DNA from: Crossaster papposus
Lineage: Eukaryota; Echinodermata; Asteroidea; Velatida; Solasteridae
Assembly (NCBI GenBank): GCA_037893245.1
Contig: JBAIAA010000697.1
Span: 1,157,484-1,221,483, forward strand
Direction: 5' to 3'
DNA: 64,000 nt
The translations under genes and the position numbers were made by a program. This document shows positions 7,503 through 62,599 of this stretch, one piece after another. The notes below the pieces were generated by a model, which searched no databases, was not told the DNA's origin, and saw only the letters and a list, made by a program, of their open reading frames with translations. The number at the start of each line of letters is the position of its first letter. The first letter of the stretch is position 1.

Positions 7503-8256
7503 ATGGCGTGTCAAACGTTGCATTATTCGATAATGTACAATATATGTGCGATGTTTCTCATATATATGCGATAATTATCACATATGTGCGATATTCGTTT
7601 TATGTATGCAATAAATGTAATATAGGTGCGATAACTTGTAATATATGTGCGATAATTTGCAATATATATTCGATAATTTTTAATATATATGTTTTATGCG
7701 ATCATTTGTATGCGATGTTTTGCGACGATATACATATGCGATAATTTAATATACATGTGCGATGTTCGTTCTTATATATGTGCGAAAACGGAATTGTGGG
7801 ATATAGTATGGCTTCCTGTCCACTTGATCCCCGTATCCTTAATGTTTTAGATCGGGCCAGACTATGGATGGTATAGAATGGTTCACTGAGGTGGGCGTAC
7901 GGGTTCTAGACTGAAATATGGTCAGGGAATGAGACTTGATTTGCGTACAAGGGAATAAAATGGCTGCGGAAGCAGTAGGAGACCCTGAACGAACATCGCA
8001 CATGTATATTAAATTATCGCATATGTATATCGTCGCAAAACATCGCATACAAATGATCGCATAAAACTATATATTAAAAATTATCGAATATATATTGCAA
8101 ATTATCGCACATATATTACAAGTTATCGCACATATATTACATTTATTGCATACATAAAACGAATATCGCACATATGTGATAATTATCGCATATAAATATG
8201 AGAAACATCGCACATATATTGTACATCATCGAATATTGCAACGTTTGACACGCCAT
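7503..8256. mobile_element. Palindromic element with 269-bp arms of TATGTGCGATAA units
   Basis: Left arm 7503-7771 and right arm 7987-8256 are close inverted copies. Each arm is a chain of degenerate short units around ATATGTGCGATAA. The loop of about 215 bp is unique. The termini are ATGGCGTGTCAAACGTTGCA and its complement. ACATAAA flanks both sides (7495-7501 and 8257-8263), a plausible 7-8 bp target duplication as in hAT-like elements. No transposase ORF is present. Confidence 0.85.
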
Positions 8257-8631
8257 ACATAAACGCATAGACCGCCATTCGAGTCGTCCCACGTGTTCAC
8301 AAAACCGTGATTGAAAAAAATGGGCAAAACCTGCCAACGCCGGCCCGCTGGCGCTGCTGCAATATAGGGCTGTTTTCCGAACCCTAGCTTTGTATTCGTC
8401 TTAAGCCGTGTGCGCACTGGATAAACATTTTGGATAATTTGACCATGACGCCGGGTAACATTCCGATGGGTTGATCTTCCCACCGTCCGCACTTGGATTT
8501 AATTGACGCGGGTAGAATTGCCGAGACGATGGGTAAACTAACCGAGCTGGCTCCAAAACAATAAAGAGGTCGCCCTGTGTGACCTATGGCCGCGACTTGA
8601 CGACCGGATCGTCTGTTCCCGATCCCTAATA
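8257..8631. other. Non-genic spacer
   Basis: After the repeated block at 8262-8350 (partner at 6827-6910), nothing is recognised. Confidence 0.4.
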
Positions 8632-12478: not shown

Positions 12479-13300
12479 CTAATATTCCACTTCCAGGCTG
12501 GTAATTTGACTCACTGCTTCGGTGATTTCTGCCCTATCGTCAGCGGTCAAATCACACTCCCACAAAAAAAGCTTTCCGAGGTGCTCCATTTTTGTCAGGA
12601 CAGACCAACCCAAGTCTAGTTTGTTGAGTGTTTTGATTTCCTTCAAGTGAGACCATGACTTACCTGATCCAGCAAGGGTGTCATTGCGAAACAGATCCAA
12701 TTCAACAAGCTTGGGCAGATTACCCAGCGCCACGGCAATGTGTTTAAAGTCATCACTTCTCAATCCGCAAAAACACAAGTCTAGTTTGTTGAGTGTTTTG
12801 ATTTCCTTCAAGTGAGACCATGACCGACCTGATCCAGCAAGGGTATCATTCCAAGTGGGATCCAATCAACAAGGTTGGGCAGATTACCCATCGCCTCAGC
12901 AATGTGCTCCAAGTCATCACTTCCTAATTCACAGGAACCCACGTCTAGTTTGTTGAGGCTTTTGATTTCCTTCAAGTGAGACCATGACCAACCTGATCCA
13001 CCAAGGGTCTCATTGCTAGACAGATCCAATTCAACGAGGTTGAGCAGATTACACAGCGCCGCCGCAATGTGCTCCAAGTCATCACTTTCCAATTCACAGG
13101 AACTCAAGTCTAGTTTGTTGAGTGTTTTGATTTCCTTCAAGTGAGACCATGACCGACCTGATCGGGCAAGGGTATCATTCCAAGTGGGATCCAATCAACA
13201 AGGTTGGGCAGATTACCCATCGCCACGGCAATGTGTTTAAAGTCATCACTTCTCAATCCGCAAAAACACAAGTCTAGTTTGTTGAGTGTTTTGATTTCCT
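12479..13300 (-). pseudogene. 3' LRR units of NLR gene 1, out of frame
   Basis: LRR-coding sequence continues after the stop at 13301, but reading is broken. Three units, at about 13355, 13191 and 12862, carry the same 1-bp deletion (CCAATCAAC where intact units read CCAATTCAAC) plus shared nearby substitutions (ATCCCACTTGGAATG). The three -1 shifts add up to one codon, so the last segment (12479-12865) is back in the frame of the main ORF and ends with a C-terminal cap similar to gene 2 (AEITEAVSQITSLEVEY). Shared flanking changes show that a damaged repeat unit was amplified, rather than independent sequencing errors. Confidence 0.8.
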
Positions 13301-15894
13301 TCAAGTGAGACCATGACCGACCTGATCCAGCAAGGGTATCATTCCAAGTGGGATCCAATCAACAAGGTTGGGCAGATTACCCATCGCCTCAGCAATGTGC
13401 TCCAAGTCATCACTTTCTAATTCACAGGAACCCACGTCTAGTTTGTTGAGGCTTTTGATTTCCTTCAAGTGAGACCATGACCAACCTGATCCACCAAGGG
13501 TCTCATTGCCAGACAGATCCAATTCAACAAGGTTGGGCAGATTACTCAGCGCCGCCGCAATGTGCTCCAAGTCATCACTTTCCAATTCACAGGAACTCAA
13601 GTCTAGTTTGTTGAGGCTTTTGATTTCCTTCAAGTGAGACCATGACCAACCTGATCCACCAAGGGTCCTATTGCGAGAAAGATCCAATTCAACGAGGTTG
13701 AGCAGATTACACAGCGCCGCCGCAATGTGCTCCAAGTCATCACTTTCCAAATCACAGGAACTCAAGTCTAGTTTGTTGAGGCTTTTGATTTCCTTCAAGT
13801 GAGACCATGACCAACCTGATCCACCAAGGGTCTCATTGCTAGACAGATCCAATTCAACGAGGTTGAGCAGATTACACAGCGCCGCCGCAATGTGCTCCAA
13901 GTCATCACTTTCCAATTCACAGGAACTCAAGTCTAGTTTGTTGAGGCTTTTGATTTCCTTCAAGTGAGACCATGACCGACCTGATCCACCAAGGATCTCA
14001 TTATCAGACAGATCCAATTTAACGAGGTTCGGCAGATTACTCAGTTGACCAACAATGTGCTCCATGTTACTGCTTGTTAGGTTGCAGTCATTGAAGGTCA
14101 CGTCCTGAAGCTGCGTCATTTTCTTCAGACGTAGAGACAAAAGGAAACGTGTACAGTCTTCAAGATATATATTTGTGTCTGGAAATCCAACTATTTGGTT
14201 ACGTACTTCAATTCTTTGAAGATTTGTCATTCTGTTCACATAATTAACGTATTCTGTACCCAACTGTGTAAAGCTTCTAGGATCCATTGTTAATGTATGT
14301 ATCCTTTCGAGGCAAGTATTTTTGCCACCCTTTTTCTGGTCACCAGTAACGTTGTTTAGGAAGTACATCAACGATGTCGAATTATCACTTCCTAATAGAA
14401 TTTCAATTTTTAGATTTGAATCAATAACGGAATTAATTAACTCCAACGATGGCAATGTCTGGCTCTGACTTTCAAAGTAACAATTCAAGGCTGCTCGTAT
14501 GGCTTTATCATCTAGATCGCCTGCATATTTGACTTTATGCGATAAAATCTGAAGAATTGAATTTGTTCGTGGCCCATCACTGTCACCGCAGCAAAAACGC
14601 AGAAGATATTCAAACCCAGCTAAATCAGACACTTGACTTGACTTGAACGTTTCAAATTCACGCGTTTCTTCTTCCGATGTTAAACTCTGGTAGTATATCG
14701 CAGCAGAAAATTCTTGAAACGTCTTGTGAATGAAATAAACAGTTTTGGAAATGTCGATCCCCTTCAAGACTCGCTCGCTGGTAAGGATGCCAGCTCGTAA
14801 GGCCTTTTCAAGCACATCCGGCTTAAAATCCCCATCTTGGAATGATAACTTTTGATCAGAAGAAAGTAGACCGGCCAAAGCAACCTTTTCAATAGCAGTA
14901 GCCAGCCTTGAAATCTCTTCTTCTGACATGTTTGTTTTACGCTGAAATATGTAACGCAGTGCCTTATTATAAAGGCGAAACATGGTGTCGGGGAGTGTAG
15001 CACTGTCTTTCCATAACAAGCACATCAATAACAACAGCATGGGACTTTTTGCCAAATCTAATAAAACTTTCGAGGATACAATTTTCTTAAAAAGTCCATC
15101 AGCTTTGGATGATTCTTCTGAATAAAATTTGTGCACATATTCCTTAACATCGTCCTTGCTAAACCCTACAACATTCACACGAGCAAACGGCCTCTGAATC
15201 AAAGTGTTCTTTACCAGCTTGTCATAGTGTGAGGGGCGGGTTGTCACAAGTACACTGCATTTTGCGAACTTTCCCTTTCGATTAAGCATTTCAAGAATCG
15301 AATCGAACTTCGACTCATCAAGCTCAGTCGACTGGAATTCATCAAAACCGTCTAACAGAAACAACACGTCGTCAGGGTTGGCTGCAATGAAGGATTCCAA
15401 GTCTTTCCTATTTATGGTCTTTTCATCTAACAACTGATCAAACAGTGCATCTATCACATCCGACGTTTGTTTCAGGGAACGCATTTTCAACACAAAAACA
15501 TGCTTGTACTTTGTTAGTGCAGCAACTTCACCACAGGCCCAATCATAAGCCATTTTGGCAACAAGAGTCGTTTTCCCTAGACCAGCCCCTCCGCTTAAAA
15601 CTGCCCGTATAATTGGATGACCCCCACTTGTTTCGAGTTTGAAAATATCCCAATACGATTTCACCTCTCCCTTCAAATCCCTATCACCTTTTACCAATTG
15701 TAGCTTTGTGTAGATGTCCATGATGTGTTTTTGGTCATCATCCACCCATGGAAGCATCTGCACATAGCTACCTGTGCTTTTGTAGATGTATTTTGCCTCC
15801 TCGCACTTATCAGCAGCAAGTTGAGTTGGATCATCGAGTCGAGTCTCCCGTGTCGTACTGCATCCTGGTCCCCTCCCACTCGACCGACTCGTTT
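13301..15894 (-). CDS. NLR gene 1: NACHT-LRR exon
   Basis: This exon encodes a STAND ATPase of the NACHT family followed by leucine-rich repeats. Counting from the internal Met at 15763, Walker A is GGAGLGKT at residues 58-65 and Walker B lies in DDVLFLLDGFDEF at about 133-145. An RPSHYDKL sensor-type segment follows, then winged-helix-like sequence, and from about residue 555 paired LRR units of 55 residues (LDLSSCELESDDLEHIA ... LGGSGWSWSHLKEIKSLNK). The exon begins at 15894, after a TTTTTGTTACATTAG acceptor, in phase 1. The upstream Met is therefore probably not the start, and 43 further residues belong to the protein. The exon is truncated by the frameshifts downstream. A cytosolic sensor role is inferred from the family; the ligand is unknown. 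Confidence 0.9.
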
Positions 15895-16439
15895 CTAATG
15901 TAACAAAAAGACAAATCGAAATTAAATCATGTTAATCGGGTTTTTTAATTTTAGCTCACACTTATCAGCAGCAAGTTGAGTTGGAACGTCAAGTTCGAGT
16001 CGCCGGCAATTAAGGTGACAATACTTCTATTAGAAACGATGGTTTTATTTTTACACAATGCTATCAATGCTCTACTATAACCCAAACCGGAATCCTTCAA
16101 ATTAAATATTATAAACAGTTTCATTCTATTGAGACAACCTCAATGAATAAAAAAAAAACACGATTCAATTGTGTTATCAGAATTTATTAAAGCATTAATT
16201 ATAAAGATGCAGAAATATTTAAGTGAATACTTTTGATATACAAAATTACTTGATTCACGAAATTATATATTGTTCAAGTGCGTAGTTATATATTTGTAAC
16301 GACTATGTGGAAATTTTGTATACGAGTAAAGGGTTCGTTAGTTTACCAAATTCCTCAAATTGTAACATAGAAAGAAGCTATAAAATAGCAATCCAAAGGT
16401 AAAACATGGAATCAGATTTGTACATTAAACAAATGTTTG

Positions 16440-16640
16440 ATATGTACGTGTATTTATCTTAGCAATGTGTGGTATATCTTGTTCATTTATGTCACATGAA
16501 GATAAATCAAGTGATTTCAGGTGAGTCATCGTCTGCAAACTAGCCGCCCACGTTCCTGCTTTACCACCCAAGCCCACATTGCCTGAAAGTTTAAGATTGG
16601 CCATGTTTGGTATCGCTCCAACTGATGATGCAATAATGAG
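16440..16640 (-). pseudogene. Isolated LRR relic in the gene 1 intron
   Basis: Encodes about 60 residues with the same LRR pair pattern as the neighbouring genes (LKLSGNVGLGG ... MTHLKSLDLSSCDIN ... IPHIAKI), but from a clearly diverged subfamily. It sits in the 2.1-kb intron between the hydrophilic-linker exon and the NACHT exon. Part of it is tandemly repeated at 16640-16700 (the GCTCCAACT / GATGCAAT motif appears twice). Best read as the remnant of an older NLR copy. Confidence 0.65.
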
Positions 16641-17105
16641 GTATATCTGGTGCATTTATGTTACAATCGTTTGGCATTGCTCCAACTTATGATGCAATGC
16701 ACGGTCGCGCACTGTCTGACCAATCAGATGGCGAGGATTTATTCAGGCGTTGTATAAAACAAATAGTGAATGTTTCACGTTCGTGCGATGGTAAGAATCA
16801 TTTCATGAGTTGACAGATTATGTTCCATTCCACTCTGCTTCGCCTCGTGGAATAAAACGTTCTATCTGTCACCTCATGAAACTATATATATCGCACTAAT
16901 CATACGAGGCAGCGACTCAGCTAAGTTTTATTTGCAGTCTGGGCCGTTCGATAATCTGAGCATGGCATCTGTTATCGGCTCCCGCTCGAAAAGGAAGCGG
17001 ATGAACTGTTTCACAGTACCGTGGGACGCTTGGCAATCTTGGCTCCCGATACACATTTCAATTTAAATGAATCCTGCAGTTTTATAGCCAACCAAACTAG
17101 CCACT

Positions 17106-17358
17106 GGTATAGTCGATGTGCCTCTGTTTACATCTGTATTCAAATCTGCTCGTCAATATGTGCACGCATATTTACATAAATGTTTACATAAATTTGGTTA
17201 AGAGATGACATCAGAGGTCACATAATTCAAAGGCGATCTGACCTGCGACGTCACTCTTTAAGCAAATTGTATGTAAAACATGATGGGTGCGCGATACTGA
17301 CGGGCACATTTGAATACAGATGTTAACACGTGACGTCAGAGGGCACATCGTCTATACC
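17106..17358. mobile_element. MITE with GGTATAG termini
   Basis: The left end GGTATAGTCGATGTGCC and the right end, read on minus as GGTATAGACGATGTGCC, form terminal inverted repeats. Both are followed within 35 bp by CATCTGTATTCAAAT. The element is about 253 bp, non-coding, and lies in the intron of NLR gene 1. Confidence 0.8.
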
Positions 17359-18025
17359 GGAGTGAACTGCTGGGCAATAAACATTCAACAAAGGATGACT
17401 CATCCTCTTTTGTCTGGCCGTAGACGTGGATACCCCGCAGTACACAGCGTGTACAGTGTACATTCATGCGTGTAATCGCGCGCGGTATGCAGCGCGCGTA
17501 GGCTGCCGATGCGGGCGCCCTCTAACGTACGCGACATGACCTTTGATAAGATCGTCTTGTATATCTCTTCTAATCGCTTGGAAAATTCCGAGCGGAATTG
17601 TGATGCATTTGCATGCGCGTGTGACTTTGCGTGCATAATTACATGACGCAACATGCATAATCGCCCATGAGGGAATAAAAACACCATGGCTCGCATAACC
17701 TGTTGTCACATTTTCTAATATTTATAGGATGGATAAATAAGAAAAAATATAGTTGGTTTCAAATTTATCCGCATTTCCTGCACTTATCCGAGAAAAGTGT
17801 CATGTTTTATCCGGAAAGGGTAGAGCAGGTATAGATTCAGATTCAGTGTCAATCTGATGCAGCAGTTTTTGGTGTGCGTGATGCAATGTGTGTAATAATA
17901 CTTTGGTAGTTTTGTTTTTTATATTTGCAAATTTTGTATAGCACCTTTACAGGCGAAAACTAAAAGATTTAAAAAAAATTAAGACCAAATTATAGAAAGT
18001 CAAAAAGTTATGGAACATGTCTTAC
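17359..18025. other. Intronic sequence of NLR gene 1
   Basis: Apart from the repeat fragment at 17575-17660 (inverted partner of 9840-9960), nothing is recognised. Confidence 0.4.
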
Positions 18026-19253
18026 CTGAACTATTTTCTGTCACTTTCAAACTTTGAAAGTTTATGTTGAAAGTCGGTTGGTTAACTGGCCCGAAAAAGG
18101 AAGGACAGTTCTCGCCACGTATATTCAAGGAATCCACTGAAACGTGTTGCACAGGTCTACGTGCGAATACAGCGGCTGATGACAGGGGTGATATTTTCAG
18201 TTGGTGTCTACCAGCAGGTACAATGTCTTGAACTGAGCTTGGACCCGGCATTAGATGTTGGTCTTGTGATTCCACATCTCTTACCACTGTCTCTTGTATC
18301 TCTGAAGGATTGCTTGGTGTATCATCACCCACTTGCCCGTGGCCTGGTTTCTGGTGCGTGGACCCCTTCAATCCAGTACCTTCTGATGATTGCATCGTCT
18401 CCTTCGTTTGAATGTTTGGATCCGTTCCCTCTGCTCCTTGCTGCGTTTGTCTCTGCTCCTCAGAAGATGCAGTCCCTTTCTTTCTTTCTTGTATCTCTGA
18501 AGGATTGCTTGGTGTATCACCCACTTGCCCGTGACCTGGTTTCTGGTGTGTGGACCCCTTCGATCCAGGATCCTCTGATGATTGCATCGTCTCCTTCGTC
18601 TCCTTGGATGACGTAGCCCCTTTTTGATTGATCTGTGCTTGAGTAACTCCCACTTGTACCGATGCAGGTTTGTCTCGATCACCAACCAACTGTCTCGATC
18701 TCTGGTCATCAGATAGTGTAGTTCCTTTCTGCTTGCTTCGTTTTTTAGCCCCTCCCAATTGTACCTTAGTCTTACGTTTTTCTCGAGAACTAACTTCTCT
18801 CTCTTCTAATCCCTGGTTCTCAGTTGATGTAGTCCCTTTCTGCTGTCTCTGTTCTTGAGAAGCTTCCACATGTACACTTGGATGTGATTTTTCTCTATCA
18901 CCATCCACCCGTCTCGGTTTTTGTTCATTAGATGGCGTATCCCCTTTCTGCCTTCTCTGTTCTTTATGTCCTGCAACTTGTACTGACGGTTTAGGTTGGT
19001 GTCGATGATCATGTTCCTTCTGTTCTTTCCACTGTTGCTCATATGACGACACCGTTAAGGCCAGCTCAGCGTGCCCGACTGCATTTAATGCATCTCGCAA
19101 TCTCTGAAATCCTTCCTCTTGATTTGTTTGCTTACTCCACCAACAACTTAGCATCTGCATGCTCCTTTCTTTGTTGCCCTGGGAGGTGGTTTGGATCTGT
19201 TTGATTTCTGCTTCTTCATTTCCCAAAGATGTGGCCAGGTTTTGTGTGCCCAA
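18026..19253 (-). CDS. NLR gene 1: Death domain 3 plus hydrophilic linker exon
   Basis: The first ~65 residues match the two Death domains upstream from the third helix on (LATSLGNEEAEIKQIQTTSQG ... MLSCWWSKQ), but the first helix (the LDEKYLKDLSSNIESS part) is absent. About 320 residues of Lys/Gln/Glu/Ser-rich sequence follow, containing a ~60-residue unit repeated twice (GSTHQKPGHGQVGD ... NPSEIQE). The exon ends at a good donor (AGTTCAG/GTAAGA) in phase 1, which matches the NACHT exon at 15894. On the 5' side only 37 bp separate it from the preceding UBL exon. The best acceptor (ATTTCAAG) gives a phase that does not match, so this junction is unresolved and may reflect a deletion. Confidence 0.75.
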
Positions 19254-19290
19254 CTTGAAATAGTATATAATGTTTCTTGTTAGCATTCAC

Positions 19291-19390
19291 CTTTTGGTCC
19301 ACCGCCCAGTAGGCCATCAGTAGACAGACGGAGTGAGATGTTTTCATCCTGATGAATTCCACAGTCGTTAAGTGTCAGCAAGTTACATAG
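19291..19390 (-). CDS. NLR gene 1: UBL 2, second half
   Basis: A 100-bp exon between ATTTTGCCAG and CCAAAAG/GTGAATG. It encodes LCNLLTLNDCGIHQDENISL and RLS, which lines up with the C-terminal half of ubiquitin (QLEDGRTLSDYNIQ...LHLVLRL). It has no terminal Gly-Gly, so this is an integral UBL module and not a conjugated modifier. It enters in phase 0 and leaves in phase 1, exactly as the paralogous exon at 21159-21261. Confidence 0.75.
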
Positions 19391-19649
19391 CTGGCAAAAT
19401 TAAAAGGATAAGGTAACTTTTTTGGTTGTATTTATTTGTATAGTGAGATTGACTTTAACCGTTGATCGTTTCCTAAACTGAAGTGTTTAAAACACCATTG
19501 TACTGTCATGCCATCAGAAGCAGCACTATTTGAGCACACTCATGTAGGTTTTAAACAGAATATGTTGTCACTAAAACGCACAATTGGGATTGCTTTTAAT
19601 TCGACATGTCAATTGGTACCTATAGTTATACATGAAATATGATCTTTAC

Positions 19650-19839
19650 CTCAAAGTTACGAAAGTTCCTCCGGATGTACAGTCGCTGTTGTTGAGGCTG
19701 GACTTCAAGTTTCTCATGTATTATCTCCTTTAAGGTCGAGACAGATGTCTCTGGATCCAGTTGGAAACAAAGAGTGTGTGGTTTGTGTGAGAGGTGACAT
19801 CGGATAAAGACTTGCAGCTTCTGGGTCACGTATCTGAAA
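19650..19839 (-). CDS. NLR gene 1: UBL 2, first half
   Basis: The exon follows the acceptor ACTCTGACAG and ends at TTTGAG/GTAAAG. The product (KLQVFIRCHLSHKPHTLCF, then LDPETSVSTLKEIIHEKLEV and QQQRLYIRRNF) matches the first strands and helix of a ubiquitin fold, including the Pro-x-x-QQRL turn. It enters in phase 2 and leaves in phase 0. The alternative acceptor six bases downstream (TTTCAG) would create a TGA with the previous exon, which is why I chose the upstream one. Confidence 0.75.
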
Positions 19840-20057
19840 CTGTCAGAGTGGGTTGTTTATGTTAGAGCTCTTGTAATATAAAGGAATGAAGACCACCATT
19901 GTAAACATTTTGTATACACCGTTTTACTAGATTTTTTTAAGGCAGTCTATGCATGATCTACAAAACCAAATCTGATTTAGCTTTTCGGCTAATGCATGTA
20001 GTTAAATTATTCAAACACAATGTGCATTATAAATTGCAGCGTTTAATCATGTTTTAC

Positions 20058-20196
20058 CAGATAACAGGTTTTTCTTGATCACAGACGTCCTTTTTCAGTG
20101 GATTATTTTCGTTTTGTTTGCTCTCCTCTTTTTCTCCTGCATCTTGACGCCTTTTTGGCTCGGGTCCAGCTGCTTCGTCTCTTGATTCGCTCGTTA
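20058..20196 (-). CDS. NLR gene 1: charged linker exon
   Basis: Lies between the acceptor TTATTGCCTCAG and the donor TTATCTG/GTAAAAC. It encodes about 45 residues of Glu/Lys-rich sequence (SRDEAAGPEPKRRQDAG, EKEESKQNENN) with no fold. Its entry phase 1 fits the Death exon upstream (GTACCAG joined to TA gives Val) and its exit phase 2 fits the UBL exon downstream. It has the same place before a UBL as the exon at 21922-22200. Confidence 0.65.
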
Positions 20197-20352
20197 CTGA
20201 GGCAATAACAACACATTTCATTTTACATTTTAAATTAGTTTTTAAAACTAATTACATTCCTGTTGTTTAAAATAGAAGTAAACTATGTTTTGTAAAGTTT
20301 TGGTTGTGGTTAAATGAGTCTGTTTTAAATTTAGTCTCTACTGCTAGCTCAC

Positions 20353-20613
20353 CTGGTACATCTTGAGCCAAGTCAGTCAACTCAATGGCTTCTAATGCTC
20401 GTCTCAGCTTTTGAGCTGCTTCGTCGCGATCTGTCGTCTTTTCCCACCAAGTGAGTAGCATGTGACGGCTCGCTTCAGTGCTGCCTTCGTTGGTGGTTTG
20501 GATGTCCGCAATTTCTGCTTCTTTGTATCCTAGGTGTTTGGCCAATTCCTTCCACGATGATTCAATATTCGAGGACAAGTCCTTAAGGTACTTTTCATCA
20601 AGCTTGGCTTTGT
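20353..20613 (-). CDS. NLR gene 1: Death domain 2
   Basis: A complete Death-fold domain of about 87 residues (LDEKYLKDLSSNIESSWKEL, AKHLGYKEAEIADI, HMLLTWWEKTTDRDEAAQKL). It has the LLxxWxxK motif typical of Death domains. The family mediates homotypic assembly with adaptors or kinases. The exon is bounded by TTTTGGCAG and GTACCAG/GTGAGC, phase 1 on both sides. It is a near copy of the exon at 20749-21009 (about 6 residue differences). Confidence 0.85.
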
Positions 20614-20748
20614 CTGCCAAAAGAATGTGTGACTTCTTGAAACATTCTCAAAGATGTCCAGTGTTGCATAGGTTAGTAACGTAGCAATTCAGATATCTCT
20701 CACACCTACACTAAAAATATACTCTCTAATTTGTCTACTTCTACTCAC

Positions 20749-21009
20749 CTGGTACATCTTGAGCCAATTCAGTCAACCCGATGGCCTCCAATGCTCGTCT
20801 CAGCTTCTGAGCTGCTTCGTCGCGATCTGTCGTCTTTTCCCACCAAGTGAGTAGCATGTGACGGCTCGCTTCAGTGCTGCCTTCGTTGGTGGTTTGGATG
20901 TCTGCAATTTCAGCTTCTTTGTATCCTAGGTGTTTGGCCAATTCCTTCCACGATGATTCAATTTTCAAGGACAAGCCCTTAAGGTACTTTTCATCAAGCT
21001 TGACTTTGT
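20749..21009 (-). CDS. NLR gene 1: Death domain 1
   Basis: Same length, phase and splice signals as the exon at 20353-20613, and about 93% identical in protein. The repeat period is 396 bp and includes flanking intron (both copies are preceded by a TGTCCAGTGTTG motif), so exon and intron were duplicated in tandem, recently. The Met codon at 21016 lies in the acceptor side of the intron (TTTTGGCAG/AC), so I do not treat it as a start. Confidence 0.85.
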
Positions 21010-21158
21010 CTGCCAAAATAATGTGTGACTTCAGTGAAACATTTTTAAAAGTGTCCAGTGTTGTTTAGGTTACCAACGTAAGAAAATATCAGTCAGAAAA
21101 TATTACATGCAGGTAGTTTATTCACTTGAATATTCTATTCCCAAAGTTTGTCATTTAC

Positions 21159-21261
21159 CTGTTGGTAAATTATCTTTATTCTGGTCATCTGATGATAGAC
21201 GGAGTGAGATGACTTCATCCTTGCTGACACCATTCTCCTCGAGCGTGAGTAAGTCACAGAG
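21159..21261 (-). CDS. NLR gene 1: UBL 1, second half
   Basis: A 103-bp exon between CTTTGTCAG and CCAACAG/GTAAATG. It encodes LCDLLTLEENGVSKDEVISL and RLSSDDQ, aligning with the second half of ubiquitin. It enters in phase 0 and leaves in phase 1 into Death domain 1. No Gly-Gly end. Confidence 0.75.
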
Positions 21262-21548
21262 CTGACAAAGTGAATAATGTTAGAGACTAAATGAAGAAAC
21301 GTGTTGGGTTTTAGTTGTGCATTAATTGAAACATCTAGAGAAGTCAATTCGTTTAACCCTTTAGGTGGGGGATTAATTGAGCGTTATTGTGTGTGTGGGA
21401 GTTTCATGAACACCGACAGATTATTAATCAAACATGAACATTTGAGCTTTTGCATTTTAGATCAACATTTGTAACTCCCACGATGAACAAATCTAAGTTT
21501 TGATATTTTAAATACAACGAAGTGTCCGGTTTATAAATATATACCTAC

Positions 21549-21732
21549 CTGGAAGTCTCCCCTGGTGTACAATTGCTGATATCGTGCCTCGACACCAATC
21601 TTCTTGACTATTTCTTCTTTTAGGAATGAGACTGTCGTCTCGGGATGAAGTTGGAAACAAAGTGTCTTTGGTGTATGTGATAGAGGAGTCTTGACAAATA
21701 CCTGCAGTATCTGCTTTACGTCTTTGGTATCA
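21549..21732 (-). CDS. NLR gene 1: UBL 1, first half
   Basis: Lies between ATTTTCACAG and GACTTCCAG/GTAGGT. The product (QILQVFVKTPLSHTPKTLCF, LHPETTVSFLKEEIVKKIGV, RYQQLYTRGDF) matches the first half of a ubiquitin fold and is clearly paralogous to the exon at 19650-19839. It enters in phase 2 and leaves in phase 0. UBL modules in other proteins bind proteasome subunits, E3 ligases or kinases; which applies here cannot be read from sequence. Confidence 0.75.
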
Positions 21733-21921
21733 CTGTGAAAATGAGGGACAATCATGTGTAGTTTTAGAAACGCATTATTCTACAATTATAGAAGAGTTAA
21801 TTTTGATTAGGTTCTCAAAGTAACGTCCACTATAGCTGCCACATTAATATGGGTGTCATGAAAGTGTCAAAGATTGAAAACATTCTTCGAAATTGAGTTA
21901 CAATAACTGATTTTGTTTTAC

Positions 21922-22200
21922 CTTCGACTTTCAGGCTTGCAACTCGATTGTCTTCGAATCCATCGTTTCGATGGTTGTCTCTCTGCACAGCTATCATCAT
22001 AAGTCAATTTCCTGTAATGCAGTACAGACAGGAAAGCCTGTTTCTTGCTTGGTTTGACTTTAGTCTTCCTGTTGATGAGTTTGGTGTTGGAGTGGTCGTA
22101 CACGACGGCTGTTGCCTTAATGTAGGCATCTAACTGCTGGACGGTCTTTTGCGGCATCTTGGTAGTAATCAGGTCCAAGTACTGCAGTACACCGAGGAGC
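21922..22200 (-). CDS. NLR gene 1: first recognised exon (basic linker)
   Basis: Encodes about 93 residues (LLGVLQYLDLITTKMPQ ... YIKATAVVYD ... CAERQPSKRWIRRQSSC) that I do not recognise. The second half is basic. A TTCGTTCAG acceptor at 22201 suggests an earlier exon, but ATG at 22157 in good context (CCAAGATGC) could also be the start. The donor is CGAAG/GTAAAAC in phase 2, which fits UBL 1. Confidence 0.55.
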
Positions 22201-23714: not shown

Positions 23715-24224
23715 TGGTGATTCTCAGGGTCTCACCCAAATCCAGGGTACAGTTAAACTCAACAAAATTGTGAGATAACTACAGAGTACAATTCAGCTGA
23801 AGAGTGCTTTATTGAGACATTAAATAATTTATGACAAAATAGCTCTGCAGGGTCTTGTGAATTTTTGAACTTCAATACATCAAAATGCAGCACGTATGAT
23901 GAGAATAACACTTGTACACACCATAAAGGGCACCATAAAATACATAAAATACTCATTACTTAACAGTTGGGTTGAGTCGTGGATTATAGGTATTCGGCGA
24001 TATTTTGGAATCCGTCATCTTTTAAGAAGTTTCAGCATAAAAAATGATTACAAAATTGTTCAAAAGTGTCCCAAAAAACGAAATTTAGAAATATCTTTTA
24101 CAATTTACAAATGAGTAAAAGTGTCAATTAAACGCTCAGATTGCACCACAGAGCATCTATAAACTCAAAGATCCAGGGGCCCTTAAGCGGGCCCCCGACC
24201 CCACGCCGTAATGGCTTCGATAAA

Positions 24225-27110
24225 GACATGTACACGTGTGCAGTGTCATATGAACTTTGGACTCCTATAAAATACAGAGTGCCTTATCGTTTTATTGGTT
24301 GAACGTTTACAACGCATGCGCAATACCTTTTACCGAGTCGGTACTTATGGTAACACATTCACAACGCATTCGCCACAGCTGCATCATAACGTATTTTCGA
24401 AACCTTTGCTTCGTCTTCGGCTTCGCCTCCGAATTCCGAAATCACTGAAAGCAAATACATACAATTAAATAAAGGTTTAACTTGTGGGTTCATATCAATC
24501 GATTGAATGTTTCTGGAACACAACAGGCATCAGGCTGTCCGAAATGCCGTCTAGAGCTACAGCTACAGCTACAACGTCACAAAAATGTAGCCGTAAAAAA
24601 AGTTGTCTAGCTCCGGCAAAACAAAGTGGCGGCAGCACTAACGTACATTTTGTAGCAAATTTTGAATAATTTGTAATGATGGTGCATCAAATTGCAACTA
24701 ACAAACCGATAAAGACGTCAATATCATCAGGTATTTTGACCGGCAGTAAACAAACATTGCGTAGCATCGAGCAGACAATAGTTGTTGCAAATTTGCAAAG
24801 CTATTTTTTTTAAAGTGCAATGTGGTCTGGACTTTACCCTAATAAATCAAGTATTGAAATAGAGTACAGGAAATTGGCTAATAGTCGCGGTGGTAACGTG
24901 TGTACGACCAAAATGATTTAACCAAAAATACCCTCGATACTTGCTCAGCCTAAATCTACGCTAGAATCGATTCTCCACGTACAGAGCGCAACTATAATGA
25001 GCTCCAGCTTTTTCGATTCCAGTATATTGTTCGATGGATTAGTGTTGCCTCTATCAACCCCGTGATCGCCGTCACAAAATAAACAAACGTACATTACACC
25101 AAACCAGACGTGTTTGTGTGCACGTATGACGCAGCACTTAATTCCAATGGGAACAACAGTTCCAATGGCTATAGGCGTGGCAAGTAACATTTAGTATCAC
25201 CAAAACCTACAAGAATGCGTTTGTCTTACAATAATTATGAACCCAATCTCACCTTTATCTCAACCTCCGTATCGGCAATAGATATCGAGTCTTGTATGTC
25301 ACGAGTGTGCATTAAAACAATGCAAAGATTAATTGGTAGAAATAGCCTATGCCGCCGCTTTCGAACCAAAATTTAAGCTATCGGCTGCGCTGAGACCACG
25401 TTATCAGATCAAAATGTTGTACCTTAGCACTTGGATAGACATGATCAAGTCGCCTTTGCGTTCAGCAAGCTTGCCTTGTTTTGGCGGGAAGCTATAGGAA
25501 AATGTTGGCAGATCTGTGCGGCCGTATGAGCCTGTATCAAATTATGCCAATAATTATCACTCTCGGGCTTTAGTTAGAAATCTGAAACTATTTGGTCGCT
25601 TGTAATCTGATACTAGATGACGTCATCGTGACGTCAATAACATAATATGTTTAAAATCGCAATCTTTGAATATCATATTTTTTCTCAAAGTTTAAAGCAT
25701 TCACAGAGCTAAAACTTTGACTGGTTAGTTGTTAAGTACAATTCCTTAGAATTTGAGAACTTCTGCTGTCACGGTTTTATACGATAAAAATGCACAACTG
25801 ACCAATGGTAGACTATAACCAACATATGGAATATACAACATTTGCAAACATCATACAAATAAACTACTAAATGACCACAAAACACTTTACTCTGAACTGT
25901 TAGGTAATGGCAGTCTGAAGCATCCTGTAAAATCATGGCTCCTGGTGAGCTGACATTTTCAAGTAGAGTTGTATTTTTGTAATAATTTCCAACGCTGGTC
26001 GGCAAATGATTTTCTGAGCATCTACGAACCCAAACTGTGCACAGAAGTCAGTGTATATTAATGCTACAACATGGCCGGTATAAAGACATGTACACTTTTC
26101 CAGTGTCATATGAACTTTGGACTCCTATAAAATACAGTGCCTTATCGTTTTATTGGTTGAACGTTCACAATGCATGCGCTATACGTTTTACCGAATCGGT
26201 ATTTATGGTCAAAAATTCACAATGCATTCGCCCCAGCTGCATCATAACGTATTTTCGAAACCTTTGCTTCGTCTTCGGCTTCGCCTCCGAATTCCGAATC
26301 ACTGAGAAGCAAATAAAATAAAATGAAATAAAAGTCGAACTTGTGGGTTCATATCAATCTATTGAATGTGTCTTAAGCACAGTAGGCATCAGGCTGTCCG
26401 AAATGCGATACCCTGCACGATTTGGGGGGAAGAATTTGCCCATATGTGTTGAGTAGTACAACAAGCCCTACACCTACTATTTCAATTACTCGAACCGTAT
26501 TACCGACATCTTACAAGGGAATAAAATCGCTACTCCATAGACCAGTGTACAAAACAATGATACCCAACTCTTACAAGAGAATAAAATCAAATCACTATTC
26601 TGTAGAACCGTATACAAACTTTAAAGTTCCGTTTAGATGGAAAATGAATTTCCTACTCACTACTCCATAGACCCGTGTACAAAAAATCACTATACAAATC
26701 CTACACGATAATAAAATCACTACTCCATAGAACCGTGTACAAACTAAAAAGTTATTTTTCGAGGGAAAATGAAATTCCTACTCACTACTCCATAGACCCG
26801 TGCACAACAATTCACTACACAAATCCTACACGGGAATGAAATCACTACTCCATAGAACCGTGTTCAAATTAAACAGTAATTTTTCGAGGGAAAATGAAAT
26901 TTCTACTCACTACTCCATAGACCCGTGCACAAAAAATCACTACAGAACTCCTATACGGGAATACAATCACTACTCCATAAAACCGTGTACAAACTAAAGA
27001 GTTACTTTTTTGAGGAAAAATAAAATGGATACAGTCCCCAGTTAATTGTATACAGTCCCTAGTTTTTCGTATACACGACTTTTATACCTTTTTCTATAAG
27101 ATCCTATTAG
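24225..27110. repeat. R-family repeat, copy 1 (longest)
   Basis: Non-coding repeat with these landmarks in order: GATGGTGCATC (24680), GCTAGAATCGATTCTCCACG (24960), AATGCGTTTGTCTTACAATA (25212), paired CRE-like sites TGACGTCATCGTGACGTCA (25618), GGTAATGGCAGTCTGAAGC (25903), and CTTCGGCTTCGCCTCCGAAT (26272). The same order recurs at 54290-59830. A second copy of the last block at 24250-24460 shows that the unit is partly tandem. The widespread, ordered copies suggest an amplified non-autonomous element or satellite-like unit; I see no clear termini. Confidence 0.8.
26480..27005. repeat. ~125-bp tandem repeat inside R copy 1
   Basis: Three to four units containing CTACTCACTACTCCATAGAC and AAATCACTACTCCATAGAAC. 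The matching place in R copy 4 (56665-56935) has about two units, so unit number differs between copies. Confidence 0.85.
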
Positions 27111-45689: not shown

Positions 45690-46670
45690 TATATGACCGG
45701 AAGAAGGGAAGTTGGGGATGGGGTGACGTACCCGTACCCGTAAGTTTGTGCGAGATCGGACCAAGGACTTGGGAGGAGTAGCGAAAAACGAACATTTGAC
45801 CTTTGACCCCAGTGACCTTGACATATGACCGGAAGAAGGGAAGTTGGGGATGGGGTGACGTACCCGTACCCGTAAGTTTGGGCGAGATCGGACCAAGGAC
45901 TTGGGAGGAGTAGCGAAAAACGAACATTTGACCTTTGACCTTTGACCCCAGTGACCTTGACATATGACCGGAAGAAGGGAAGTTGGGGATGGGGTGACGT
46001 ACCCGTACCCGTAAGTTTGGGCGAGATCGGACCAAGGACTTGGGAGGATTAGCGAAAAACGAACATTTGACCTTTGACCTTTGACCCCAGTGACCTTGAC
46101 ATATGACCGGAAGAAGGGAAGTTGGGGATGGGGTGACGTACCCGTACCCGTAAGTTTGGGCGAGATCGGACCAAGGACTTGGGAGGAGTAGCGAAAAACT
46201 AACATTTGACCTTTGACCTTTGACCCCAGTGACCTTGACATATGACCGGAAGAAGGGAAGTTGGGGATGGGGTGACGTACCCGTACCCGTAAGTTTGGGC
46301 GAGATCGGACCAAGGACTTGGGAGGAGTAGCGAAACAAACAGACAAACAGACGAACATTTGACCTTTGACCCCAGTGACCTTGACCTTTCCAAAAATGAA
46401 CCCCTCAAGGGCAATTCTGGGGTGAACTTACATCCACCCACCAAGTTTGGGCGAGATCGGACCAAGGACTTGGGAGGAGTAGCGAAACAAACAGACAAAC
46501 AGACGAACATTTGACCTTTGACCCCAGTGACCTTGACCTTTCCAAAAATGAACCCCTCAAGGGCAATTCTGGGGTGAACTTACATCCACCCACCAAGTTT
46601 GGGCGAGATCGGACCAAGGACTTGGGAGGAGTAGCGAAACAAACAGACAGACAAACAGACAGACAAACGT
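45690..46670. repeat. 132-139 bp minisatellite with GACCTTTGACC motifs
   Basis: Five units at 45693, 45825, 45964, 46103 and 46242 (spacing 132, 139, 139, 139) share ATGACCGGAAGAAGGGAAG and GGGCGAGATCGGACCAAGGA. Unit length varies by one 7-bp TTTGACC step. Two related units follow with a different middle part (TCAAGGGCAATTCTGGGGTG), and the array ends in an ACAGAC repeat (46636-46666). The long minus-strand reading frames are artefacts of the repeat. Confidence 0.95.
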
Positions 46671-51070: not shown

Positions 51071-51496
51071 GTCCAGGCAAACTAACTTTTGAAATGGAAA
51101 AAAATGCAACAGAATTTATTTGGGCACAGAGGTCATCTATAAGGTGTCCTGAATAACATATTAAAAGTCCTAAGAAATTACTGTTGCGGAAATGTGTTAA
51201 ATGTGCAAAAATCCAAGATGGCCGCCATAAATATGTAATGTATCATATATTCGCTGTCAGAAGAGATATTTGAATTATTTGAAATTCTATTATATGTTTT
51301 TTACGCAAAATAAGTCATTTGGAATAGGTTACGACTTGATTGGAGGTAATGGTCATGGATAAAATCTAATATGGCCGCCACAAATCAAAATGTTATTATA
51401 CATTTGCACGTGAATCTTCACCAATCACCAATGTTATTACTTTAGGTAGGCCTATTTAATATACTAAAAATGTGAATCACCCCAACATCTGGTGCT

Positions 51497-52465
51497 ATGT
51501 ATTTGCTGAAATATATATTGAATGTCTTATTTCGGTTCAAGGCTGACAGAAGAAACGTGATGGCAATAGTTAAACGAGACAGACGTGTTGCATATGTGAA
51601 GACCAAAAATTGGCGTGGCCATGGGCACAGCGAATGCAGTCCGGAGATTTGTGACATAACCCTATTTAAATACAAACAAGAAAACATTATCCCTCACAAT
51701 CCCTCAATTGTGAGCTACATGAGATATAGAGACGATGTTCTTATAATCTTTAACGGAAATGAAAAGCAGGCTGCTGACCTAGTGCAATCACTTAATAAAA
51801 TTCATCCAACGCTGAAGTTCACGTCTGAGATCTCACACCGCCAAGTCACTTTTCTCGACCTTTTTATCTACAAAGGCGAACGATTCATACATGAAGGGAT
51901 ATTGAACACTCGAGTAGCTACCCAAAAAACTTATACATTTCAGTACCTAGCTCGAGATTCAGCACACCCTAAGTCGGTATTTAGCGGATTAATCAAGGGC
52001 GAAGTGACCAGATACAAACGTATATGTACCCATTTAAAAGACTTTGAGGAGAGGGTTGAATTCTTCAAAGACAAACTTCAAAAGCGCGGATACACAAACG
52101 AAGACCTAGCCCTCCTTTCTCAACGAGGCAAGACTCCCGCGGACCCTAAGCGTGAAAAAAACAAAAACAATACCCCACTGGTGTTCGTCCTACCACACTC
52201 CCCACATGTCGCGCACCCAGCCCTCAAACGGGCTTTCCTCAAACACTGGCCCTTGATTAGTGAAAACGAATACCTAAATAGGCTATTTGATACCCAACCC
52301 ATCCTGGCATACAAACGGCACAAAAACATAAAAGATGAACTTGTTCAATCTAGGACTAAAGCATCTCCACAATCCAACCAAGAGGAACAAAATCTTGATG
52401 AGGAGAATCTGCAAATCTTATTGGAAGAACAAAACAATGATCAAAGAAATGGATCTCAAGACTAA
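51497..52465 (+). pseudogene. Penelope-like reverse transcriptase, C-terminal part
   Basis: An open frame of up to 322 codons. The catalytic palm motif is MRYRDDVLIIF, with Arg where most elements of this class have Ile (YIDD), at about residues 78-88. It is followed by the typical HPTLKFTSEISHRQVTFLDL segment, the thumb (SGLIKGEVTRYKRICTHLKD) and an AYKRHKNIKDELVQSR connector. The fingers and first palm motifs are missing at the 5' side, and the GIY-YIG endonuclease is missing after the stop. It is a broken retroelement, or part of an endonuclease-lacking lineage. Confidence 0.8.
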
Positions 52466-54289: not shown

Positions 54290-57110
54290 CATTGGCAGTG
54301 ACTGCGCACTTCCAATGGAACAAAAGACTAGGCGTGGCAAGTAAAACTTAGTATCACCAAAACCTACAATAATGCGTTTGTCTTACAATAAATATGAACC
54401 CAATCTCACCTTTATCTCAACCTCCGTCTCGGCAATAGATATCGAGTCTTGTATGTCACGTGTGTTCATTAAAACAATGCAAAGACAACTGGTAGAAATA
54501 TGGCGCTGATTTCCAACCAAAGTGAAAGCTATCGGCTGAGATCACGTCATCGGATCAAAATGGTATTCCTTTGTATAACATTTTGTACCTTTGTACTTCC
54601 CGATAAACATGTTCAAGTCGCCCTTGCGTTTATCAAGCTTGCCTGTTTTGGCGGGAAGCTGATAAGAAAATGTTTACATTCGAGAATGGCAGATCTGTGT
54701 GGCCGTATGCGCCTGTACCAATTAATGCCAATTAATAATCATCACTCTCGGGCTAGGCTTAGGCTAGAAATCCTAACAATATTTGGTTGCTTGTAATCTG
54801 ATGCTTGATGACGTCATCGTGACGTCGTAAACTTATTAACAGGTTCAAAATCGCAATCTTTGAATATTATTTTCTCAGAGTTTAAAGCATTCACAGAAAT
54901 AAAACTTTGTCCAGTTAGTTGTCAAGTACAACTCTTTAGACTTCTGCTGTTTTATACGATAAAAATGCACCACTGACAAATGGTAGACTATAAACCTGAA
55001 AGGAAATATACAACATTTGCAAACATCAAACAAAATAAATTACTAAATTGTCACAAAACACTTTTCTCAAAAAAAATACCCTCGATACTGATCAGCCTAA
55101 ATCTACGCTAGAATCGATTCTCCACGTATATAGCACAACTATAGTGAGCTCCAGCTTTTCGATTCCAGTACATTGTTATACATCTATATATCAACCCCGC
55201 GATCGCCGTCACAAATAAACAAACGTACACGACACCAAACCAGACGTGTTTGTGTGCACGTATGGCGCAGCACTTAATTCCAATGGGAACAACAGTTCCA
55301 ATGACTATAGGCGTGGCAAGTAACATTTAGTATCACCAAAACCTACAAGAATGCGTTTGTCTTACAATAATTATGAACCCAATCTCACCTTTATCTCAAC
55401 TTCCGTACCCGGCAATAGATATCGAGTCTTGTATGTCACGAGTGTGCATTAAAACAATGCAAAGATTAATTGGTAGAAATAGCCTATGCCGCCGCTTTCG
55501 AACCAAAATTTAAGCTATCAGCTGCGCTGAGAACACGTTATCAGATCAAAATGTTGTACCTTAGCACTTGGATAGACATGATCAAGTCGCCTTTGCGTTC
55601 AGCAAGCTTGCCTTGTTTTGGCGGGAAGCTATAGGAAAATGTTGGCAGATCTATGCGGCCGTATGAGCCTGTATCAAATTATGCCAATAATCATCACTCT
55701 CGGGCTTTGGTTGGAAATCTGAAACTATATGGTCGCTTGTAATCTGATACTAGATGACGTCATCGTGACGTCAATAACATATTATGTTTAAAGTCGCAAT
55801 CTTTGAATATCATATTTTAAGTTTAACGCATTCACAGAGCTAAAACTTTGACTGGTTAGTTGTTAAGTACAATTCCTTAGAATTTGAGAATTCTGCTGTC
55901 ACGGTTTTATACGATAAAAATGCATAACTGACCAATGGTAGACTATAACCAACATATGGAATATGCAACATTTGCAAACATCATACAAATAAACTACTAA
56001 ATGATCACAAAACACTTTACTCTGGACTGTTAGATAATGGCAGTCTGAAGCATCCTGTAAAATCATGGTTCCTGGTGTGCTGACATTTTCAAGTAGAGTT
56101 GTATTTTTGTAATAATTTCTAACGCTGGTCGGCAATTGATTTTTTGGAGCATCTACGAACCCAAACTGTGCACAGAAGTCAGTGTATATTAATGCTACAA
56201 CATGGCCGGTATCAAACGGATGATAAAGACATGGCTGGCTGGTCTTAAACACTTTTCCAGTGTCATATGAACTTTCGACTCCTATAAAATACAATGCCTT
56301 ATCGTTTTATTGGTTGAACGCTCACAACGCATGCGCAATACTTTTTACCGAGTCGGTATTTATGGTAACAAATTCACAACGCATTCGCCACAGCTGCATC
56401 ATAACGTATTTTCGAAATCTTGCTTCATCTTCGGCTTCGCCTCCGAATTCCAAATTACTGAGAAGCAAATAAAATAAAATTAAGAAAAGCCTAAATTTTG
56501 GGTTCATATCAATCTATTGAATGTGTCTTAAGCACAGTAGGCATCAGGCTGTCCGAAATGCGATACCCTGTACGATTGGGGGAAAGAATTTGCTCATATG
56601 TGTTGAGTAGTACAACAAGCCCTACACCTACTATTTCAATTACTCGAACCGTATTTCCGACATCTTACAAGGGAATGAAATCGCTACTCCATAGACCAGT
56701 GTACAAACAAATGATACCTAACTCTTACAAGAGAATAAAATCAAATCACTATTCTGTAGAACCGTATACAAACTTTAAAGTTCCGTTTAGATGGAAAATG
56801 AAATTCCTACTCACTACTCCATAGACCCGTGCACAAAAAACCACTACACAAATCCTACACGGGAATGAAATCACTACTCCATAGAACCGTGTACAAACTA
56901 AAAAGTTACTTTTTTGAGGAAAAATAAAATGGATACAGTCCCCAGTTAATTGTATACAGTCCCTAGTTTTTCGTATACACAACTTTTATACCTTTTTCTA
57001 TAAGACCCTATCTAAATGAAATTATTTAGGTGCATAATAAACCAATAATTTTGGTTAATAGAAAAAGGTATAACAGTCGTGTGTACGCCACTAGGGACTG
57101 TATACAATTA
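54290..57110. repeat. R-family repeats, copies 4a and 4b
   Basis: A partial unit at 54290-55075 (CRE pair at 54808) is followed by a fuller one at 55080-57110 (GCTAGAATCGATTCTCC at 55110, CRE pair at 55756, GGTAATGGCAGTC-like block at 56034, CTTCGGCTTCGCCTCC at 56430, short VNTR at 56665-56935). The junction repeats the ATTTAGTATCACCAAAACC motif. Confidence 0.85.
56950..57109. repeat. Hairpin with 50-bp arms at the R copy end
   Basis: TTGTATACAGTCCCTAG ... ACCTTTTTCTA at 56950-57000 pairs with TAGAAAAAGGT ... CTAGGGACTGTATACAA at 57060-57109. Only the left arm is present at the end of R copy 1 (27040-27100). Confidence 0.8.
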
Positions 57111-57359
57111 AAATGGGTCACAGACTATTCGATGGTAAGCGTTGAACGCCCAGCATTAATACATAACAGTCAGGTTACCAACCATGTAGTACGTGTAGTG
57201 ACCAGTATTACTACTCAGCACCACCGTCCAAATTATTCCCCCCAAATAATGCACCATATGCAAAATGCCGTCTACAGCTACAGCTACGGCTACAACGTCA
57301 CAAACATGTAGCCGTAAAAGAAGTTGTCCAGCTCAGGCAAAACAAAACGCGGCAGCACT

Positions 57360-61603: not shown

Positions 61604-61608
61604 CAAAA

Positions 61609-62365
61609 TAGGAAGAAAGCTTGAACGAGGCGAACTGACGGATTTAATTTACAAAAGACCGCGACGGTCACAAGACTGGATAAGAAACAAAGCTTGAACG
61701 AGGCGAGCTGACGGATTAAAAAACAAACAAGAGACCACGACGGTCAGAAGACTGGATAGGAAGAAAGCTAGAACGAGGCGAACTGAAGGATTTACATTTA
61801 CAAAAGACCGCGACGGTCACAAGACTGGATAGGAAGAAAGCTTGAACGAGGCGAACTGAAGGATTTACATTTACAAAAGACAACGACGGTCAGAAGACTG
61901 GATAAGAAACAAAGCTTGAACGAGGCGAACTGACAGATTAAAAAAGAACAAGAGACTACGACGGTATGAAGACTGGATAGGAACAAAGCTTGAACCAGGC
62001 GAACTGACGGATTAAAAAAGAACAAGAGACCACGACGGTATGAAGACTGGATAGGAACAAAGCTTGAACCAGGCGAACTGACGGATTAAAAAAGAACAAG
62101 AGACTACGACGGTATGAAGACTGGATAGGAACAAAGCTTGAACGAGGCGAACTGACGGATTAAAAAAGAACAAGAGACCACGACGGTATGAAGACTGGAT
62201 AGGAACAAAGCTTAAACGAGGCGAACTGACAGATTAAAAAAGAACAAGAGACTACGATGGTATGAAGACTGGATAGGAACAAAGCGCTTGAACGAGGCGA
62301 ACTGACGAATTAAAAAAGTACAAGAGACCGCAACGTTCAGAAGACTGGATAGGAAGAAAGGCTCT
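61609..62365. repeat. 72-77 bp minisatellite, ten to eleven units
   Basis: Units contain AAGCTTGAACGAGGCGAACT and AGACTGGATAGGAA, with starts near 61618, 61690, 61767, 61838, 61912, 61987, 62060, 62135, 62210 and 62283. Two middle-part variants (ATTTACATTTACAAAAGAC and ATTAAAAAAGAACAAGAGAC) occur in blocks. Confidence 0.93.
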
Positions 62366-62599
62366 AGAACAGATGAACTAACGGAATAAAAATAACAAGA
62401 GACCGCGAAGGTCACAATACTGGATATAGACCCTGGGACGAAGTCACAAAATCCTTTCAGAAAGACATTTTCGTGATCCCCAACTTGGTACATGATAAAA
62501 CTTTCACAAATTGATCTTTAGGGCATACCTAACAACGTTTGGGGTGTTCATTTTTGCAAAAGTGGCACTTTGGAGAGTTATTTCACGTAAAAAAATTGA

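Follow-up and report, generated by a model that had tools for sequence, protein, structure and literature searches.

A probably damaged member of a sea-star NLR-type gene family in which ubiquitin-like domains are interleaved with Death domains

Within a 64,000-nt stretch of the Crossaster papposus genome (contig JBAIAA010000697.1, positions 1,157,484 to 1,221,483; hereafter the window), the minus strand between window positions 22157 and 13301 is readable as ten predicted exons. Domain comparison confirms that they make up a gene of NLR type in which two ubiquitin-like domains (UBLs) alternate with Death domains ahead of a NACHT domain and leucine-rich repeats (LRRs). Sequence comparison also shows that this gene has many counterparts elsewhere in the genome, their heads lying upstream of NACHT on one strand, and further relatives in other sea stars. 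The order common to the family is an N-terminal motif (N-motif), a first UBL (UBL1), an array of 2 to 25 near-identical Death domains, a linker, a second UBL (UBL2) ending in a GLLGGG tail, a third Death domain (Death3), a second linker, NACHT and LRR. The window locus itself is probably a structurally damaged copy within this large multigene family of NLR-type intracellular sensors.

The domain assignments rely on a Pfam scan of nine segments of the window gene, to which the curated cut-offs were applied. Both UBLs exceed the cut-off of 25.4 bits for ubiquitin (UBL1, 29.5 bits, E = 6.2e-7; UBL2, 34.2 bits, 2.2e-8), as do Death exons 4 and 5 (46.8 and 49.9 bits; 3.4e-12 and 3.6e-13) and the partial Death3 (29.4 bits, 8.8e-7) the Death cut-off of 22.6. 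NACHT reaches 103.6 bits (1.3e-29; cut-off 26.7), and its open reading frame contains the nucleotide-binding motifs GGAGLGKTT and LLDGFDE. LRR_6 and LRR_8 also score above their cut-offs, although the repeats are shortened by a frameshift in this copy, and the solved structures nearest in sequence to the NACHT-LRR exon are NLRP3 and NLRC4. In the same nine segments there is no Pfam match to PYD or to the OAS-like nucleotidyltransferase, and CARD_2 matches weakly on Death segments, under its cut-off (best 0.0092). The linker open reading frame extends for 428 codons, a length found in none of 1000 mononucleotide shuffles. Because of the E-values, the shuffles and the homologues described below, the observation is not attributed to chance. 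The order UBL-Death-Death-UBL-Death-linker-NACHT-LRR, proposed in an initial annotation from the letters of the sequence, is therefore upheld, since both UBLs, the two full Death domains and NACHT pass the Pfam cut-offs.

Exons 1 to 8 have standard AG acceptors and GT donors with matching phases, and the ATG at 22157 is backed by an N-motif common to Patiria and Acanthaster homologues. The UBL exon pairs are phased 2-0 and 0-1 and the Death and NACHT exons are in phase 1, as had been claimed. The splice sites and phases of the ten-exon chain hold as well, but it does not constitute a single open frame to 12479, the gene end originally suggested, as the NACHT-LRR frame stops earlier, at a TGA at 13301; the suggested start at 22200 lies 43 bases upstream of the ATG. 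The features of the gene, in the order of its transcription, are:

21922-22157, minus strand: exon 1, with the start codon and the conserved N-terminal motif MPQKTVQQLD...KATAVVYDHSNTKL... (homologues; own-genome matches)
21549-21732, minus strand: exon 2, first half of UBL1, phase 2 to 0 (Pfam, gene model)
21159-21261, minus strand: exon 3, second half of UBL1, phase 0 to 1, without a GG tail
20749-21009, minus strand: exon 4, Death domain, a symmetric phase 1-1 unit (Pfam 3.4e-12)
20353-20613, minus strand: exon 5, Death domain, unit 2 of the array (Pfam 3.6e-13)
20058-20196, minus strand: exon 6, charged linker, phase 1 to 2 (present in 6/6 paralogues)
19650-19839, minus strand: exon 7, first half of UBL2, phase 2 to 0 (Pfam, gene model)
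19291-19390, minus strand: exon 8, second half of UBL2, ending in GLLGGGPK, phase 0 to 1
19243-19249, minus strand: junction of a deletion of about 400 bp that took the intron 8 acceptor and the first part of the Death3 exon (not seen in the 27 other places found)
18026-19207, minus strand: exon 9, read via a cryptic acceptor, truncated Death3 and linker, ending in ...FFGPVNQPTFNINFQSLKVTENSS (the sister copy has an intact counterpart)
16461-16665, minus strand: LRR relic in intron 9, resembling the LRRs of the predicted proteins P0008 and P0011
13301-15894, minus strand: exon 10, NACHT-LRR with Walker A and B motifs and the TGA at 13301; NACHT at about 15601-15113
12479-13300, minus strand: further LRR units past the stop, in shifted frames

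The single phase mismatch reported in the initial annotation is real and sits at the deletion junction, near 19249-19243. Comparison of window positions 18030-19840 with the animal's own genome gave 113 matches (best 40 of 138 candidates scored), and among the places matched query positions 592-598 are unbroken only in the window copy. At the 27 other places where a match starts at 598 there is always an upstream partner block, separated from it by 393-410 bp in 26 and by 238 bp in one, and the gap between the same two blocks in the window copy is 5 bp. Lost in the deletion are the 3' end of intron 8, acceptor included, and the 5' part of the Death3 exon; the phase mismatch exists because this loss of about 400 bp cut Death3. 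The only open path through the window copy uses a cryptic acceptor at 19207, a site whose counterpart in the sister copy lies within a normal exon, and yields a model of 1749 residues; a splice that skips from exon 7 to a phase-0 site at 19253 was also considered. Three of nine LRR units compared carry a variant that is one base shorter (164 rather than 165 bases), and the stretch 13300-12479 therefore lies beyond the TGA at 13301. The ratio of nonsynonymous to synonymous substitution rates (dN/dS) in the NACHT region, measured against the second copy, is 0.74, indicating weak constraint. With Death3 cut by the deletion and the LRR frameshifted, this copy is probably defective or much altered and has probably lost its normal function.

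Evidence for the family was drawn from 1.02 Gb of the animal's own genome in 1841 contigs. Of 83 matches to exon 1, 74 fall below 1e-20. Using the best 100 of 422 NACHT candidates scored, 35 of these 74 strong loci share a contig with a NACHT and 39 lie on contigs without one. A same-strand NACHT is located 5.8-22.4 kb downstream of exon 1 in 34 of the 35 testable loci; in 2000 trials of random placement, for which the size of one contig was assumed, such pairings averaged 3.3 and never exceeded 11. Among the same 35, a NACHT also lies upstream in 16, as expected in tandem clusters, and on the opposite strand within 25 kb in one. A scan of the head exons in the best-scoring 30 exon-1 loci, the window's own included, found 28 in which exon 1 is followed, in order, by the two halves of UBL1 and one or more Death exons, among them the divergent L028; L014 has exon 1 only and L023 is without the second UBL1 half. 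Contigs C632 and C518 of the same genome (G000) hold many more exon-1 matches, 81-96% identical and with no scored NACHT on the contig, and represent a divergent branch of the family.

Six paralogues, chosen not at random, were read from head to NACHT: four (L039-L042) picked for a head-NACHT distance of less than 10 kb, the sister copy, which is the nearest relative of the window linker exon, and the gene whose Death array is longest (C164, minus strand, from 580954 downwards). The exons of all six lie on one strand in an identical order, and each NACHT exon is preceded by a TTAG acceptor in phase 1; standard donor and acceptor sites are present at exon 8 of L039 and L040 and at the NACHT exons. 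Death3 was detected in three of the six. In the sister copy an open model of 2016 residues with NACHT and LRR is obtained provided that one 260-nt Death unit is skipped, and in the gene with 25 Death domains the NACHT frame is at least 847 codons long. That head and body belong together is supported by the linker-NACHT junction in an Acanthaster predicted protein (P0001), where the window's linker ends directly before NACHT, and by the same-strand pairing in 34 of 35 loci.

The Death exons form arrays whose units are spaced at 396-397 bp. Exon 4 has at least 150 matches (the best 150 of 379 candidates) in 42 clusters, the largest comprising at least 23, 10, 9, 8, 7, 7 and 7 units. In the largest array, at C164:569951-579950 and read from the letters, all 25 units are 261 nt long, flanked by AG and GT and free of stops; they have a mean likeness of 96.6%, 21 of the 25 are distinct and the mean departure from the consensus is 5.9 bases, with a ratio of nonsynonymous to synonymous differences per site (pN/pS) of 0.47 and an intron divergence of 0.040. 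The head of this gene, from exon 1 through the 25 Death exons to UBL2, is stop-free over 2492 codons. Units per array in six genes number 2 (the window copy and L042), 3, 4, 4 and 7, and over 20 full-length Death exons from six genes pN/pS is 0.26. Since the Death exons are symmetric in phase 1, an array can grow or shrink with the frame kept. Odd or broken units also occur: one of 260 nt in the sister copy, one of 246 nt, in frame, in L040, and two scored units with stops at C362:379751-380407. In an AlphaFold2 model of the homologue P0005 the Death segments are predicted to form helical bundles, with a predicted local distance difference test (pLDDT) score mostly of 78-94 per block.

The same P0005 model (15 sequences, mean pLDDT 60.1), which was used for the UBL and Death segments only, gives both UBLs the order strand-strand-helix-strand in blocks with a pLDDT of 56-90. 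Foldseek aligned its UBL region with ubiquitin chains at a template modelling score of about 0.8-0.9 of target, and at 1.1-1.8 Å for many, in a listing that does not say which UBL is concerned. The beta-grasp fold of the UBLs is thus supported by structure prediction for a homologue. The prediction for P0019, a protein with one UBL, was poor (mean pLDDT 41.7) and was given no weight. Across an alignment of 36 UBL rows, in which the first UBL of P0012 was sorted with the NACHT-proximal group, the ubiquitin core positions are conserved. The Leu8-Ile44-Val70 patch of ubiquitin is not retained, position 44 being Ile or Val in 4 of 36 and position 70 Val in none; these positions are mostly Tyr/Phe and Arg. 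A tail survey covered 25 proteins and took the UBL nearest to NACHT on its N-terminal side, or the final UBL in proteins lacking NACHT: all 25, including four from Asterias and one from a brittle star, carry a GL[LMPR]GG tail on this UBL, whereas none of the 11 UBLs that come first in a pair has a GG. UBL2 of the window copy and of the six paralogues likewise ends in GLLGGG. The GG tail sits a few residues farther from the last strand than in ubiquitin. From few substitutions in six genes, pN/pS is 0.23 for exon 1, 0.51 for UBL1b and 0.27 for UBL2a and UBL2b.

Relatives outside the genome were retrieved by protein searches that rely on shared five-residue words. When 8000 candidates were scored with the 1749-residue model, at least 18 proteins matched, and Patiria miniata and Acanthaster planci account for P0001-P0014 among them. 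The head of P0014 found at least 13, all from the same two species; the neighbouring NLR in the window, as a query (best 120 of 164 matches), added relatives from Asterias and a brittle star. Home-made profiles were mapped on all 135 retrieved proteins, of which 25 have a UBL, 131 a NACHT and 21 both. The combination of UBL, Death and NACHT is found in 15 of them, all predicted proteins of Patiria or Acanthaster.

Several observations weigh against an intact family of single large genes. The joined gene models and the RefSeq proteins alike are predictions, and four homologues (P0005, P0012, P0013 and P0023) consist of the head with no NACHT match. In the paralogues other than the sister copy (5/6), no open path from UBL2 to the end of the linker could be read: L041 and L042 have Death3 in another frame than the linker end, with 22 and 10 stops, respectively, separating the two, while L039, L040 and the 25-Death gene gave no Death3 match, and the frame leading up to their linker end stays open for 158-220 codons. 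The sister copy read with all seven Death units stops at residue 636, and its UBL1 is not significant alone at 0.001, a threshold that only one ubiquitin stretch of this copy passes. UBL1a has a pN/pS of 1.22, that is, no constraint, in the same six genes and again from few substitutions. Several contigs resemble haplotype pairs, so that the family counts may be nearly doubled.

Some of these points could be accommodated by two adjacent genes, a UBL-Death adaptor and a separate NACHT-LRR protein, joined on paper only, which would also suit the 39 strong N-motif loci on contigs without a scored NACHT and the neighbouring body of the same NACHT type that bears a transmembrane head. This is nevertheless highly improbable given that 34 of 35 heads have a same-strand NACHT downstream, far above the random maximum, that an opposite-strand NACHT is nearby in just one, that P0001 carries the same linker directly before NACHT and that the phase-1 NACHT junction is retained in all six paralogues. 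A different objection concerns the window copy, which could be a working gene that splices to 19207, ends at 13301 and encodes 1749 residues, with Death3 reduced and the LRR short. No frame break occurs along this model, and Death3 and LRR length vary in other copies too; even so, the position of the acceptor inside a normal exon of the sister copy, the three frameshifted LRR units and the weak constraint on NACHT make this doubtful, and a damaged copy is preferred.

As regards the individual modules, the Death arrays might represent recent selfish tandem duplications that are without function and are removed or skipped in the mRNA, for which the close likeness of the units and the broken ones in the sister copy and at C362 could be cited. 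We consider this unlikely, as every unit of the largest array is intact despite the mean difference of 5.9 bases from the consensus, and pN/pS over the 20 exons is low. For the UBLs, the conserved core and ubiquitin-like fold would be compatible with mimicry of polyubiquitin that recruits ubiquitin-binding signalling partners, by analogy with OASL, whose two tandem UBLs are stated to mimic K63-linked polyubiquitin (PMC6019448) and are reported to recruit in this way for RIG-I. With the residues at the Ile44 and Val70 positions replaced and UBL1a unconstrained, such mimicry is quite unlikely. A related suggestion, again by analogy with the GG end of ubiquitin, is that the GL[LMPR]GG tail is a site of processing or conjugation. 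Its presence on every NACHT-proximal UBL surveyed, against none of the first UBLs, and in the window copy and six paralogues would fit, but the GG is displaced relative to ubiquitin, a glycine hinge would give an identical picture and no protease has been identified, and we hold this role to be distinctly improbable.

The preferred interpretation of the family as NLR-type sensors suggests how an intact member might operate. The LRR would sense a microbial or danger signal and NACHT, with its intact nucleotide-binding motifs, would oligomerise the sensor. The Death array would gather many Death domains on one chain, so that Death-fold assembly would start at a lower threshold, and the number of Death exons would set the strength with which assembly with adaptors, kinases or caspases is nucleated. 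The UBLs may be docking modules for partners from the ubiquitin pathway rather than straight ubiquitin mimics, employing a surface other than the Ile44 patch, and the GG tail of UBL2 could serve as a hinge or a processing site. A bolder version, to which we attach little credence, is a built-in valency dial in which 2 to 25 Death domains seed a Death-fold filament within one polypeptide and the head is cut or conjugated at the GG of the NACHT-proximal UBL on activation. The heads of NLRs determine what the sensor does; if the interpretation is right, signalling valency would itself evolve as a trait in a family whose heads combine UBLs, a conserved GG tail and, in a single genome, 2 to 25 Death domains, and the natural variants would allow the number of Death domains needed for nucleating a signalling complex to be tested.

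A second NLR is located at window positions 43447-37397 on the minus strand, where a NACHT-LRR exon follows three small phase-1 exons that encode a transmembrane segment (Kyte-Doolittle 2.29), for a total of 1064 residues. Its body has 89% DNA identity to the first NACHT-LRR of the window and its head is also found in Patiria P0025, P0026 and P0029 and Acanthaster P0038; among the matches listed, it shares 65% identity with a Patiria protein over 94% of the length and 47% with the best Acanthaster match. Acanthaster P0024 has a transmembrane segment, a Death-like stretch (by eye) and then NACHT-LRR, an alternative head on the same kind of body. That the window NACHT body is a one-off chimera with the transmembrane NLR was considered and rejected, the same NACHT type being found behind the same head in all six paralogues. 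In intron 9 the stretches 16149-16000 and 16460-16332 are about 91% like an intron of the transmembrane NLR, and L041 has, at 8148-8366 on the gene strand, a partial NACHT of another type (45%) just 5' of the full NACHT exon. An older swap of sensor bodies is therefore possible from the sequence: the LRR relic in intron 9 (16665-16461), of another LRR type, and the two intron stretches would be its traces, along with the second partial NACHT of L041. Elsewhere in the window, an open frame of 329 codons at 51476-52462 on the plus strand resembles what we take to be a reverse-transcriptase fragment, dispersed repeats up to 93% alike lie at 24220-26775 and 54329-59822, and tandem repeats occupy 65-702 (54-bp units), 45691-46653 (139-152 bp) and 61608-62426 (74 bp).

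The heads of vertebrate NLRs are PYD, CARD or BIR. NLRP3 and NLRC4 have NACHT and LRR in common with the window gene, the head of which is composed of UBL and Death domains. NLRs of sea urchins and sea cucumbers have Death or DED heads, with no UBL mentioned in the portions of the sources seen. Also described are a sea-cucumber membrane NLR with immunoglobulin and NACHT domains (PMC13133943) and expansions of Death-like and TRADD-N domains, echinoderms included (PMC8195603). A UBL with Death and NACHT is not described in the available parts of these two, nor in those of PMC11508797, PMC8913654 and PMC6019448. The novelty claimed at the outset holds to the extent that no published description of the UBL, Death and NACHT architecture is among the literature matches listed, but RefSeq models in Patiria and Acanthaster already have it. 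OASL resembles the window family in being an innate-immunity protein with two UBLs, in the part of the source seen (PMC6019448); unlike it, OASL has an OAS-like domain, its two UBLs are adjacent and C-terminal, and Death, NACHT and LRR are absent. The Asterias proteins P0039, P0045, P0073 and P0101 and brittle-star P0120 have, like the window family, a UBL with a GL[LM]GG tail upstream of NACHT (the UBL scores of P0101 and P0120 being under the Pfam cut-off), and three of the four Asterias proteins share the N-motif, but unlike the window family no Death domain was detected in these five. The nearest counterparts are P0001-P0014, P0019-P0023 and P0093 of Patiria and Acanthaster, named in RefSeq 'protein NLRC5-like', 'titin-like', 'trichohyalin-like' or 'uncharacterized', which have a window-like order of N-motif, UBL, Death and mostly NACHT; in the hidden Markov model map, the proteins from these two sea stars have one or two Death units between the UBLs, in contrast to up to 25 in the window's genome.

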